In this document: positions 9,926-37,890 of the stretch, piece after piece
Layout of the letters: every line of letters starts with the position of its first letter
Position numbering within the stretch: position 1 is the stretch's first letter
NCBI RefSeq assembly: GCF_001874625.1
Contig: NZ_CP017671.1
Coordinates: 1,240,001 to 1,304,000 of the forward strand
Origin: Providencia rettgeri
GTDB lineage: Bacteria > Pseudomonadota > Gammaproteobacteria > Enterobacterales > Enterobacteriaceae
Reading direction: 5' to 3'
DNA: 64,000 nucleotides
Translations under genes and position numbers: made by a program
Notes under the pieces: model-generated
Database searches by the model: none
Told to the model about the DNA's origin: nothing
What the model saw: the letters and a program-made list of their open reading frames with translations, nothing else

Positions 9926-10048
9926 TTCTCGTCATATTTCGAGCTGTGGCGGTGTTGGCTACACTCGCGACCCCTAGTCACATACTTGTGTATGCTCCTA
10001 GGGAGTCGCTCATTTGCCGCCTAGCCACAACTCGAACTATTTAGAGAA
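9926..10048. repeat. ERIC-like (IRU) imperfect palindrome, 123 bp
   Basis: The termini are inverted: TTCTCGTCATATTTCGAGC at the left and CTCGAACTATTTAGAGAA at the right. The centre reads GACCCCTAGTCACATACTT then TGTATGCTCCTAGGGAGTC, the layout I know from the ERIC core (CACCCCAGTCACTTACTT / ATGTAAGCTCCTGGGGATTC). The distal part TTTGCCGCCTAGC also matches. ERICs are non-autonomous palindromic repeats of enterobacteria. This copy begins on the base after the ybgI stop codon and forms the left edge of a tandem array. Confidence 0.8.
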
Positions 10049-10710
10049 TTAAATTTTCAAGCTAATCTTCATTGATTTTATAAATCTAACCTCGGCGGTG
10101 TAGGCTATACTCTTAGAGAGTCGCTCATTTGCCGCCTAGCCACAACTCGAACTATTTAGAGAATTAAATTTTCAAGCTAATCTTCATTGATTTTCTAATT
10201 CTAACCTCGGCAGTGTTGGCTATGCTCTTAGGGAGTCGCTCATTTGCCGCCTAGCCACAACTCGAACTATTTAGAGAATTAAATTTTCAAGCTAATCTTC
10301 ATTGATTTTCTAAATCTAACCTCGGCGGTGTTGGCTATACTCTTAGGGAGTCGCTCATTTGCCGCCTAGCCACAACTCGAACTATTTAGAGAATTAAATT
10401 TTCAAGCTAATCTTCATTGATTTTCTAATTCTAACCTCGGCAGTGTTGGCTATGCTCTTAGGGAGTCGCTCATTTGCCGCCTAGCCACAACTCGAACTAT
10501 TTAGAGAATTAAATTTTCAAGCTAATCTTCATTGAGTTTCTAATTCTAACTTTGGCGGTGTTGGCTATGCTCTTAGGGAGTCGCTCATTTGCCGCCTAGC
10601 TACAACTCGAACTATTTAGAGAATTAAATTTTCAAGCTAATCTTCATTGATTTTCTAAATCTAACCTCGGCGGTGTTGGCTACACTCGCGACCCCTAGTC
10701 ACATACTTGT
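10049..10710. repeat. Tandem array of a 115-bp ERIC-derived unit, five full copies plus a partial
   Basis: The motif GAGTCGCTCATTTGCCGCC recurs at 10118, 10233, 10348, 10463 and 10578 (10003 in the flanking ERIC copy), exactly 115 bases apart. Each unit has a non-ERIC spacer (TTTTCAAGCTAATCTTCATT and neighbours) and a shortened ERIC. The shortened copy lacks the roughly 30-base central segment with the CACATACTT stem. The last, incomplete copy (from about 10624) has that centre again, then breaks off at 10710. Units 1 and 3 share CGGTGT/CTATACTC variants while 2 and 4 share CAGTGT/CTATGCTC, suggesting duplication of a dimer. The array fills the gap between the convergent ybgI and MFS genes. 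No credible gene lies inside it. Confidence 0.92.
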
Positions 10711-34439: not shown

Positions 34440-34510
34440 AGCCGCCGTTGATACGAGAATACGGTTAGCCGAAAACCTCGAGATACAAAGAAGAAATATA
34501 GTTTTAGATG

Positions 34511-34570
34511 GGGTGTTAGCTCAGTCGGTAGATGATTGAGTTTTATTAAGATGGTTGCAGGTTCAACCCG
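34511..34570 (+). pseudogene. Decayed tRNA-Lys-like gene
   Basis: The D-arm block GTTAGCTCAGTCGGTAGA is intact and a T-arm-like GGTTGCAGGTTCAACCC follows. The anticodon arm is altered (TTGAGTTTTATTAAG in place of TTGACTTTTAATCAA) and no CCA-ending acceptor strand can be formed. It looks like a degraded copy of the tRNA-Lys genes just downstream, in the same transcript. Confidence 0.65.
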
Positions 34571-34611
34571 AAGGGTAAGAAGCTGTGATTAGTTAGAAAA
34601 GTTATATAGAT

Positions 34612-34687
34612 GGGTCGTTAGCTCAGTCGGTAGAGCAGTTGACTTTTAATCAATTGGTCGCAGGTTCGAATCCTGCACGACCCACCA
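34612..34687 (+). tRNA. tRNA-Lys (UUU), copy 1
   Basis: 76 bases. Acceptor GGGTCGT pairs with ACGACCC, followed by an encoded CCA. D-arm GCTC..GAGC, anticodon loop CTTTTAA with TTT, T-arm GCAGG/CCTGC with TTCGAAT loop. It corresponds to the lysT/lysW family genes at this position in E. coli. Confidence 0.96.
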
Positions 34688-34721: not shown

Positions 34722-34797
34722 GGGTCGTTAGCTCAGTCGGTAGAGCAGTTGACTTTTAATCAATTGGTCGCAGGTTCGAATCCTGCACGACCCACCA
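34722..34797 (+). tRNA. tRNA-Lys (UUU), copy 2
   Basis: Identical in sequence to the copy at 34612-34687, 34 bases downstream. It is the last intact tRNA before the 129-bp repeat array. The first array unit starts directly after its 3' end. Confidence 0.96.
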
Positions 34798-35510
34798 TCT
34801 CAACAGCAGTTCAAGCCAATTCACTACCCCGTAAATACTCAGTCGCCAATCCATACCTCGGCAAGCTGGTTGCAGGTTCAGGCCGCAGGCTAAATTCGCA
34901 GAATTTAAATCCTGCACGACCCACCATCTTAACAGCAGTTCAAGCCAATTCACTACCCCGTAAATACTCAGTCGGCTATCCATACCTCGGCAAGCTGGTT
35001 GCAGGTTCAGGCCGCAGGCTAAATTCGCAGAATTTAAATCCTGCACGACCCACCATCTCAACAGCAATTCAAGCCAATTCACTACCCCGTAAATACTCAG
35101 TCGGCAATCCATACCTCGGCAAGCTGGTTGCAGGTTCAGGCCGTAGGCTAAATTCGCAGAATTTAAATCCTGCACGACCCACCATCTTAACAGCAGTTCA
35201 AGCTAATTCACCGGCCCGTAAATACTCAGTCGGCAATCCATACCTCGGCAAGCTGGTTGCAGGTTCAGGCCGTAGGCTAAATTCGCAGAATTTAAATCCT
35301 GCACGACCCACCATCTCAACAGCAGTTCAAGCCAATTCACTACCCCGTAAATACTCAGTCGGCAATCCATACCTCGGCAAGCTGGTTGCAGGTTCAGGCC
35401 GTAGGCTAAATTCGCAGAATTTAAATCCTGCACGACCCACTATCTCAACAGCAATTCAAGCCAATTCACTACCCCGTAAATACTCAGTCACCAATCCATA
35501 CCTCGGCAAG
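34798..35510 (+). repeat. 129-bp tandem array built on the tRNA-Lys 3' end
   Basis: The motif CCTGCACGACCCACCATCT (3' end of tRNA-Lys plus 3 flanking bases) recurs at 34911, 35040, 35169, 35298 and 35427, each 129 bases apart, and the tRNA itself has it at 34782. Each unit also contains ACTCAGTCGG, like the tRNA D-arm, and GGTTGCAGGTTC, like the T-arm. A roughly 28-base insertion (AGGCCGCAGGCTAAATTCGC onward) splits the T-loop region from AATCCTGCACGACCC. There are five full units and a partial that ends near 35510. Because 129 is a multiple of 3, long open frames appear on both strands, including a 266-codon one from 34749. I do not call them genes. The layout resembles the repeat array downstream of tyrT in E. 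coli (rtT/tpr). Confidence 0.92.
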
Positions 35511-35599
35511 CGCGCAATGGTTCTAAGCATACCTTTAAAAAGTGCATGAATTAGTTAGTGACTTAAATATGACTGAGATAAACTGAAAAGTGACAAGAT

Positions 35600-35777: not shown

Positions 35778-36647
35778 TTATAATCCTTCAGGTAGCAAGC
35801 CATTATCTTGTAAAAAGCCAATGACTAACATTTGCATTTTTTTTGCTAAATTATGCGCAGGAGAAAAGCCCTGTAACTTGGCAAGGTCGATACTCACCTC
35901 ATCAAAACAACGCATTAAACATTGCAATGACAAGGCAGCTTTTTCTGAGGTACTGCAATTAAAAATGATTTCTAGTGCCTGTATGTACTTTTGTGGCATC
36001 CATTCATGGTACTTACGGCCATTATACCAAACATGCTTACCTTGTATGGTTACAAGGTGCTCAAGTAGCGTTAAGAAATAGTGCTTCATATCGGTACTTC
36101 TTGACCATGCCACCCATAATTCTTCACGAGTTAATGCTATGGCGACTTGATGGGCTTCGTGCCAAAAGTCTGTAACGGTTTGTGAAAACTCAGTCTCTGT
36201 TAATGGTGTTGGTGCTAAAGATAGCAAATTGGCATCTTTTGGTAGCCCTTCAGTGATCCCAGTTTTATCTAACAAAACAATAAACCCGCGAGAGAATGTC
36301 GCATCTAACCCCTCACGTTTCATTTTATATAAGCGTTCAGGCTCAGCAAATGTGAAATCAACTTTGCGACCTTCCTCGTATATAACTAAACATGTCGGCC
36401 AATCTGGTGCGTCCTCTTCTTGATTGAGTAAATGTAGAACTGCTAAAGAGGAGCCAAAATGGTCAACCCAATGTTTTTGGTTAAATATTTCTGTCACACC
36501 GTGACCGATTAACTCAATGTCAATGTCGGAGTAATTATCAACATCTTGCTCTCTTCCTCGTGAGCCTGTGAGTACCACAGCTTCGATTCTTGGGTCGAGT
36601 AATGAAATGGATATAATTTTATTTATAATAGATACAGGTAATTCCAT
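35778..36647 (-). CDS. ANT(6)/AadE-like aminoglycoside nucleotidyltransferase
   Basis: 289 residues. The N-terminal nucleotidyltransferase fold has the signature GSRGREQDVDNYSDIDIEL with Gly28-Ser29 and the metal-binding Asp41 and Asp43. The following region (VDHFGSSLAVLHLL, then YEEGRKVDFTF) and the helical C-terminal half fit the streptomycin adenylyltransferase family (PF04439). Family members transfer AMP to streptomycin, but many chromosomal relatives are uncharacterised, so resistance is not implied. It stands alone between the tRNA-Lys array and an AT-rich orphan gene. Confidence 0.8.
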   Translation of the reverse strand: MELPVSIINKIISISLLDPRIEAVVLTGSRGREQDVDNYSDIDIELIGHGVTEIFNQKHWVDHFGSSLAVLHLLNQEEDAPDWPTCLVIYEEGRKVDFTFAEPERLYKMKREGLDATFSRGFIVLLDKTGITEGLPKDANLLSLAPTPLTETEFSQTVTDFWHEAHQVAIALTREELWVAWSRSTDMKHYFLTLLEHLVTIQGKHVWYNGRKYHEWMPQKYIQALEIIFNCSTSEKAALSLQCLMRCFDEVSIDLAKLQGFSPAHNLAKKMQMLVIGFLQDNGLLPEGL

Positions 36648-37050: not shown

Positions 37051-37890
37051 ATGAATGCTATTTTTCAGGGGAGTAATACTCAGGAAGAGCGTAAAGAGGG
37101 TATTCGTGGAAGGAATAAAAGTTATTTAGAATTGAAGGAAAATTTTGAATATATCTATGAAAAAATACCAGCTTATTATAAAGAACTAAAATCATTAACT
37201 GAAGAAATATCAAATCTAAAAAAAACAATCGATAAACATGATGTAGCTAATGAATATATTGATAGGGTTAATGAATATATTGATAGAGTTAAGGGGGGAT
37301 TGGACACATATATGGAACTAAAAGGTAAGTTGGAACCTTATCTTGATGAACCAGTGAAAATAAAAAATATTCCATCAGAGATAACAGGAATCTATAGTAA
37401 TGTGGCATTAAGTATTCGTAATTATCCTACTATTAACTATTCTTTGTATAGGCTGCCATCTAAGTTTAAACAAAACTCCCCAAAAAAAACAAATCAAGCT
37501 AAAGGTTATACATTAGATTTCCATACCTCTTTGGCCAAAATAAGGGAGCCAGTAGCATTAATATCTAGAAAAATAAATGAAATAAAAGATTATGAAGAAA
37601 CAGGAGGGGAAGTTGGTGAGTTTGTTGAATATAAGCCTAAAATAATGACTGAAAATTTGGGTAATACTGATACGCCAAATGATAGTTTAAAAAAAGAATC
37701 ATTAAAACAAGACAAATCAATCAAAGATAAAGATATGGAGAATTTAGGTTTTTATAATGAAGGAATTAAATTGATAGAAAATATTGTTAGTTTATATAGC
37801 AGTGAACAAGCATTGTTAAATAAAATAAGTGATAATATAAATATTAGTAATGGTGCTAAAGTACTAATTTCATTTCTACCTACAATGTAA
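37051..37890 (+). CDS. Orphan AT-rich gene, coiled-coil protein of unknown function
   Basis: 279 residues with no family I recognise. It is Lys/Glu/Asn/Ile-rich, strongly helical, with coiled-coil-like heptads at about 25-90 and no signal peptide. The sequence contains an exact seven-residue duplication, NEYIDRV NEYIDRV, from a 21-base tandem repeat at 37243-37284. There is a charged, disordered-looking linker at about 195-230. The base composition is much richer in A+T than nearby conserved genes, with many AAA, ATA and AGA codons, which points to horizontal acquisition. Ribosome site AAAGGA before the ATG. A secreted (for example type III) protein is possible on composition and isolation only. 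Confidence 0.75.
   Translation: MNAIFQGSNTQEERKEGIRGRNKSYLELKENFEYIYEKIPAYYKELKSLTEEISNLKKTIDKHDVANEYIDRVNEYIDRVKGGLDTYMELKGKLEPYLDEPVKIKNIPSEITGIYSNVALSIRNYPTINYSLYRLPSKFKQNSPKKTNQAKGYTLDFHTSLAKIREPVALISRKINEIKDYEETGGEVGEFVEYKPKIMTENLGNTDTPNDSLKKESLKQDKSIKDKDMENLGFYNEGIKLIENIVSLYSSEQALLNKISDNINISNGAKVLISFLPTM

Follow-up and report, generated by a model that had tools for sequence, protein, structure and literature searches.

What is a tandem array that follows a tRNA gene and repeats the 3′ end of that gene, and what might it do there? The question is raised by a locus of Providencia rettgeri, lying in a window of 64,000 nucleotides (the whole stretch of DNA that was analyzed), in which units of 129 bp stand behind two tRNA-Lys genes. 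A sequence-only reading of the window had proposed an analogy with the repeats behind tyrT of E. coli, which correspond to the RtT model of Rfam (RF00391) and on which Bosl and Kersten reportedly worked. To our knowledge, there is no agreed function for the tyrT repeats. We find that the units in the window are a new and shorter form of RtT element, beyond the reach of the Rfam model.

Architecture of the array

A tandem array with a period of 129, 5.7 copies and 96% matches is reported by TRF at 34779-35511. Its part from 34798 to 35511 comprises five complete units of 129 bp each, followed by a partial one of 69 bp, directly 3′ of the second tRNA-Lys(UUU), and both the TRF period and units measured from CCA to CCA bear out this arrangement as it had been proposed. 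The tRNA-Lys cluster is flanked by cpoB and nadA. Features of the region are listed with the evidence for each.

34507..34590 (3′ limit approximate), + strand: head-type pseudo-tRNA-Lys that retains its 5′ half, has a ACCCGAAGGGT hairpin interrupting the T-loop and lacks a tail (sequence; one of 24 such elements)
34612..34687, + strand: first tRNA-Lys(UUU) (ARAGORN; Rfam tRNA model, 79.2 bits)
34722..34797, + strand: second tRNA-Lys(UUU), the last intact tRNA, 3′ end identical to the unit tails (ARAGORN; Rfam tRNA model)
34798..34926, + strand: unit 1, type I, 129 bp (CCA-to-CCA distance; TRF; tail pattern)
34798..34867, + strand: leader of unit 1, C-rich and G-poor, with D-arm relic ACTCAGTCG; proposed Rho loading region (sequence; composition over 29 loci)
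34868..34879, + strand: T-arm 5′ strand of unit 1, GGTTGCAGGTTC (sequence; alignment of cores)
34880..34907, + strand: T-loop insert of unit 1, 28 nt, two mini-hairpins (covariation; insert-only profile that matches some RtT units)
34908..34926, + strand: tail of unit 1, the tRNA-Lys 3′ end copied through CCA (sequence; tail pattern)
34927..35055, + strand: unit 2 (TRF; tail pattern)
35056..35184, + strand: unit 3 (TRF; tail pattern)
35185..35313, + strand: unit 4 (TRF; tail pattern)
35314..35442, + strand: unit 5, tail ending in CACTA (TRF; tail pattern)
35443..35511, + strand: partial unit 6, which stops before the T-arm (TRF; tail pattern)
35778..36647, − strand: relative of AadS-like aminoglycoside nucleotidyltransferases, convergent and facing the array (score well below the curated cut-off)

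Each full unit runs from a C-rich leader with a D-arm relic through the T-arm 5′ strand and a 28-nt insert to the tRNA 3′ end (AATCCTGCACGACCCACCA). The 28-base insertion described earlier is exact, and in unit 1 it sits at 34880-34907, between GGTTC and AATCC. Two other details required correction. The tail CCCACCATCT, said to close every unit, is present in units 1 to 4, but the fifth tail reads CCCACTATCT; and the D-arm-like motif ACTCAGTCGG is exact in units 2 to 5, while its counterpart in unit 1 ends in GC and that in the partial unit in AC. The 18-nt tRNA 3′ end is found five more times within 650 bp, in four cases unaltered and in the fifth with a single change, which is far beyond chance.

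The origin from tRNA-Lys holds. Judged by its sequence, each unit is a copy in which the 3′ half is retained through CCA and the 5′ half has decayed, with two predicted mini-hairpins of the CGNAG type in place of the T-loop. A reading of the unit as a foldable tRNA was rejected: applying a tRNA covariance model had been suggested, and both the Rfam tRNA model (RF00005) and ARAGORN find the two tRNA-Lys genes and call no array unit a tRNA.

The pseudo-tRNA-Lys upstream of the two genes has a T-loop break of the same kind as the array units. Twenty-four such head-type elements occur between or before tRNA-Lys genes in the Providencia loci that we fetched (see below); some end in a common AAGAAACTGTGATTAGTTAG-like stretch and others retain the 3′ half. 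Further repeats in the window are a second tandem array at 9991-10682 (115 bp, 6.0 copies, 95% matches), with a GGTGTTGGCTACACTCGCGACCCCTAGTCACATACTTGTG stretch on either side, and a 21-bp direct repeat of 2.1 copies at 37248-37292, inside the open reading frame 37051-37890.

Distribution in Providencia

The unit is found 13 times in its own genome, as six full or partial copies in the window and seven at a second locus 1.7 Mb away (C1:2986022-2986845, − strand), where the array follows three tRNA-Val and three tRNA-Lys genes. Unit DNA matches 17 of 24 Providencia genomes. From these 24 genomes, 51 stretches around tRNA-Lys genes were fetched and searched on the tRNA strand for the tail pattern, with at most three mismatches and at most 400 nt between tails. 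This search yielded 91 units at tRNA-Lys clusters, in 36 stretches from 22 genomes, and no unit in the other two genomes.

The 91 units comprise 74 short units (type I), 16 RtT-like units (type II) and one deleted form, and unit length ranges from 86 to 173 bp with one unit at 365 bp. The latter, an RtT-like unit of G021 (locus L088, 1853-2217 in tRNA orientation), reaches this length by a long run of TTCAAG-type hexamers in its core. Three 123-bp units sit between tRNA-Lys and tRNA-Val and hence not behind the last tRNA. Copy number behind tRNA-Lys varies among relatives, as had been anticipated; for example, at the val locus G005 has one unit and G006 has four. An assembly artifact is unlikely, given related arrays of different sequence in many genomes and at two places in this one.

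The relatives also bear on whether the array encodes a Tpr-like repeat peptide, which the sequence-only reading had brought up. As with E. coli tpr, a frame passes through tRNA-linked repeats: one forward frame is open through the whole window array, with 266 codons from a TTG. Unlike tpr, this frame is not conserved among relatives. Unit lengths often are not multiples of three, a forward frame is open in 3 of 21 multi-unit arrays (and a reverse frame in 3 of 21), and no frame stays open through this genome's other array. We regard the peptide as extremely improbable and rejected it on these grounds.

Apparent kinship with RtT

The window array gives no match to the RtT model at E≤5, and no RF00391 match occurs anywhere in its genome (cut-off 45 bits). 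However, RtT is found in 10 of the 24 Providencia genomes, nine of them over the Rfam cut-off, and the type II units of these sister genomes reach 107 bits. They share with the window units the tRNA-Lys loci, the tails and the placement of hairpins, and differ in being 170-173 bp long, with a longer insert and a leading hairpin. The GAGAA before the T-arm that belongs to this leading hairpin is present in 16 of 16 type II units and in none of 74 type I units. In G014, the two types alternate within one array of 171, 102, 171 and 102 bp.

A profile of the insert, made without T-arm and tail and taking in the 123-bp intermediates from G002 and G003/G022, was run against 138 RtT-type sequences and matched 3 of them at E≤0.001, 8 at E≤0.1 and 21 at E≤1; not one of the 138 reversed sequences used as controls matched at E≤1. 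These matches are weak and lie just 5′ of the tail, and most RtT sequences have no clear match. In Pectobacterium zantedeschiae, G221 and G149, the unit retains tRNA-Lys from the anticodon stem to TTCGA and carries the RtT core in the T-loop, a layout that fits a tRNA copy with an insert at this place.

The proposed likeness to tyrT is upheld. Like RtT (rttR) at E. coli tyrT, the window array is tandem, on the same strand and behind a tRNA, with tails that repeat the host 3′ end and hairpins before the tail. It differs in its lysine tRNA, its 129-bp units (three spacings at tyrT are 178 bp by our measurement), the absence of the leading hairpin with its GAGAA loop, the D-arm relic that it keeps, and the missing match to the RtT model. 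In E. coli, where RtT is annotated as a small RNA, an RttR match occurs in 4680 of 5426 genomes at 1 to 9 places each, indicating that copy number is variable in the known system as well. With true RtT units at the same tRNA-Lys clusters of sister genomes, and with intermediates, the window units look homologous to RtT and not merely analogous, as far as comparison of sequences can tell. The proposal that this architecture arises repeatedly is better replaced by that of one element family behind several tRNAs. In the literature, the part of PMC4986893 consulted describes RtT RNAs that precede a gene for tRNA-Asn and one for tRNA-Lys and mentions many tRNA operons, and the part consulted of PMC2965389 lists rtT-like members among candidate attenuators in BIMEs.

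RtT units mostly match their host tRNA

Among 247 genomes sampled from the order, RtT is found in 52 at E≤0.001 and over the cut-off in 34, under stricter filters by which weak matches are lost. We analyzed 121 RtT matches, with about 13 dropped as tandem neighbors or at contig edges. A tRNA on the same strand lies within 600 nt upstream in 113 of the 121, corresponding to 82 loci; none of the matches ends at a genuine tRNA end, and 13 of 121 begin within the upstream tRNA. Over the 82 loci the tail agrees with its own tRNA at a mean of 16.6 of 18 positions, versus 11.2 for other classes. Agreement covers 17 or 18 of the last 18 nt in 66 loci and fewer than 15 in 15 loci, and in 74 loci none of the 25 tRNA variants compared agrees better than the one present at the locus, with four ties.

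Sixty-five loci whose tails are alike at 16 or more of 20 positions were used for the tests of class, T-arm, hairpin and pairing. Their tRNAs are Ser (21 loci), Lys (19), Tyr (11), Pro (7), Arg (5) and Glu (2). By these sequence comparisons the sampled RtT units form a family that accompanies tRNAs of six classes and generally reproduces the 3′ end of the host tRNA, and no description of this tracking was found in the open-access literature that we searched. A model, R1, run over the 247 genomes scored mostly 35.5 bits, the score of tRNA-Lys itself, and its tally of 82 genomes is not a unit count. Chimaeribacter coloradensis has units of approximately 49 bp behind tRNA-Lys (L098, 1-240), with little beyond the tail and no hairpin insert.

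The leading RtT hairpin also follows the host. Its motif is present in 49 of the 65 loci and missing in 16, including all five Arg loci, and the 49 were reduced to 26 genus-by-tRNA rows. Over these rows, the left arm agrees with the 5′ strand of the host T-stem at 4.38 of 5 positions (permuted 3.35) and the right arm with the 3′ strand at 4.04 of 5 (permuted 2.96), with none of 10,000 permutations as high in either case. In the Rfam model the left arm pairs with the tail, which biases its score, and the right arm alone is free of this bias. An anti-tail pairing score of 487 versus 362.5 (sd 10.1; 0 of 5000 permutations, 65 loci) carries the same bias, because the Rfam model pairs that stretch with the tail, and the Arg loci oppose it (4.7 versus 5.6). 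The right-arm test is cleaner than the pairing test, even if the motif it relies on was itself derived from these data. In a noisy comparison of T-arm 5′ strands, the own tRNA exceeded the mean of the other classes in 51 of 65 loci and frequently scored lower than the best of those classes.

These matches could mean that RtT is a general device of tRNA trailers, an RNA matched to its tRNA and acting as a tRNA-specific folding switch, which we consider speculative and quite improbable. In a full RtT unit, the two 5-nt arms of the leading hairpin (A and B) repeat the host T-stem around an AUGAGAA loop, followed by another T-stem 5′ strand (C) and the 3′-end copy (D). Since A resembles C, B resembles D, and all repeat strands of the real T-arm, the RNA could pair as A-B with C-D, as A-D with B-C, or in exchange with the tRNA itself. 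The short Providencia units would then be a reduced form in which C and D alone are present.

Compensatory changes in the T-loop insert

Alignment A1 covers 31 of 49 distinct type I cores (32 rows, one core typed twice). A structure of three helices is paired in 95.0% of its cells, compared with 85.8% in shuffles (0 of 500 as high) and 16-44% when the structure is slid along the alignment. Cells changed on both sides of a pair number 44, versus 12.2 in column shuffles (0 of 500 as high). Such double-sided changes affect two of four pairs of the first hairpin and five of six pairs of the second. They affect no pair of the T-stem, whose sequence is constrained by that of the tRNA. However, two of the five covariation measures do not rise above shuffles: seven pairs have double changes versus 5.2 in shuffles (53 of 500 as high), and the count of further pair types is equaled by 348 of 500.

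The predicted fold of a single unit is no more stable than those of its shuffled versions (z 0.05; −0.75 for the 75-nt core). In a fold of tRNA plus unit 1 (z −2.71), the 5′ acceptor strand of the tRNA pairs with the unit tail. The stability of this fold may derive mostly from the tRNA itself, and we do not rely on it.

The 3′ ends of tRNA genes are integrase targets, and such a 3′ segment serves as attB. The tails, being segments of this type, could each be an attR relic and the array a set of tandem attachment-site scars or decoys, a form to which the Chimaeribacter array, with little but its tail, would correspond. But hairpin covariation is not expected of att sites, no integrase is among the four neighboring proteins scanned, and the unit has no match at E≤0.01 among 50,697 records of phages and 72,556 of plasmids, so that a phage or plasmid origin of the unit was rejected. 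We judge attachment-site relics to be very unlikely.

Probable recombination between tails and tRNA genes

Recombination among the tails and with the tRNA would let an array grow and shrink while its tails stay equal to the tRNA. In G007 and G016, the 3′ end of tRNA-Lys reads CCCGCACGGCCC, and its changes appear in all four units seen, two of which have one extra change each. In both genomes (L056, L057, L075-L077) tRNA and unit also keep GCAGG on the opposite strand of the T-stem, leaving an A-C mismatch in the T-stem (GCAGG/CCCGC). Changes common to tRNA and units fit recombination between them. Exchange between the two array loci of a genome is less general: in only 3 of 11 genomes (G000, G012 and G020) do the arrays resemble each other more closely than they resemble the best match at the same locus in another genome, and plainly the reverse is true of G003 and G022.

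Such recombination might be all there is to the array, a pseudo-tRNA copy expanding by unequal exchange between tRNA 3′ ends, neutral or selfish and merely tolerated. The wide differences in copy number and unit length among relatives point this way, as do the near-alike arrays of one genome (0.973 in G000, where the closest arrays at the same loci of other genomes reach 0.79 and 0.80), the Chimaeribacter array, and the folding of single units, which does not exceed that of shuffles. A merely tolerated array is argued against by the compensatory changes within the insert, by the presence of RtT units in 52 of 247 genomes of the order and by a leading hairpin that tracks the host T-stem; we consider such an array unlikely but a serious alternative.

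Proposed termination and processing of the tRNA-Lys trailer

The reading that we prefer, tentatively and with somewhat less than even confidence, is that the array forms the 3′ trailer of the tRNA-Lys operon, made of short RtT relatives and acting as a zone of Rho-dependent termination that is cut at the tails. The array would be co-transcribed with the tRNA-Lys genes, and its C-rich, G-poor leaders would load Rho, ending transcription inside the array and before the convergent gene. The nucleases responsible for trimming the 3′ ends of tRNAs would then cut at the tails and release unit-length RNAs, as with the RtT RNA from E. coli tyrT. Termination at tyrT is Rho-dependent.

This trailer reading draws on leader composition, a terminator scan, the convergent gene and cutting by RNase E. 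The spread of units through Providencia, the RtT units of sister genomes and the array of mixed types, the compensatory changes and profile matches of the insert, and the tails that follow the tRNA also favor it. Counting against it are the folding of single units, the missing RtT-model match of the window units and the missing GAGAA of type I units, the two covariation measures at the level of shuffles, and the two genomes in which the tail pattern gave no unit. Type I leaders contain C and G at fractions of 0.268 and 0.126 (C exceeds G in 26 of 29 loci), and type II leaders at 0.244 and 0.082 (9 of 9). The spacers between tRNAs are at 0.137 and 0.128 (14 of 38) and the 100 nt upstream of the first tRNA at 0.186 and 0.178 (26 of 47). 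RtT leaders across the order are less clear, at 0.265 and 0.188 (47 of 65). Richness in C is a weak signal for Rho.

Scanning 32 arrays, all of them behind the last tRNA, revealed no intrinsic terminator, and 3 of 50 loci have one within 1.5 kb behind. The same scan reported 20 on both strands of the window, including a terminator-like site at 35626-35608 on the strand of the convergent AadS-like gene. Relatives of this gene occur in 22 of the 51 fetched stretches. In 17 loci they are convergent and end 54-339 nt behind the array, in one more they lie far off, and in four loci they are present without an array. According to the part of PMC5222698 consulted, RNase E cuts close to the 3′ ends of tRNAs and generates the leuZ 3′ETS. 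The consulted part of PMC4986893 describes two RtT RNAs with Northern signals in A. pleuropneumoniae, but also putative Rho-independent terminators for all of its candidates, RtT included, which speaks against Rho for these RtTs. Their position upstream of tRNA genes in that report likewise counts against a trailer. This report and the same-genome likeness in 3 of 11 genomes slightly lowered our estimate for a Rho-dependent trailer and raised that for a neutral array.

Trailer RNAs may instead act in trans, as small RNAs or sponges. RtT is annotated as an sRNA, and tRNA trailers can be sponges (PMC10455298 and PMC5222698, in the parts consulted). For example, the E. coli glyW-cysT-leuZ 3′ETS is an sRNA sponge that, as the window array would, yields RNA from the trailer of a tRNA operon; in the parts of its description consulted, it is not presented as tandem or as carrying copies of tRNA 3′ ends. 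Leader length and sequence differ between species, which argues against a trans-acting RNA, and we hold this role to be rather improbable.

Implications

The tyrT repeats now appear as one case of a family that, in our sample, stands behind Tyr, Lys, Pro, Ser, Glu and Arg tRNAs. A natural minimal form, consisting of T-arm, two hairpins and tail, and an array of nearly nothing but tails exist alongside full RtT. If the folding switch were true, it could couple the folding or maturation of tRNA 3′ ends to termination. Comparing the different forms of RtT lets roles in termination, processing and recombination be tested apart from one another.
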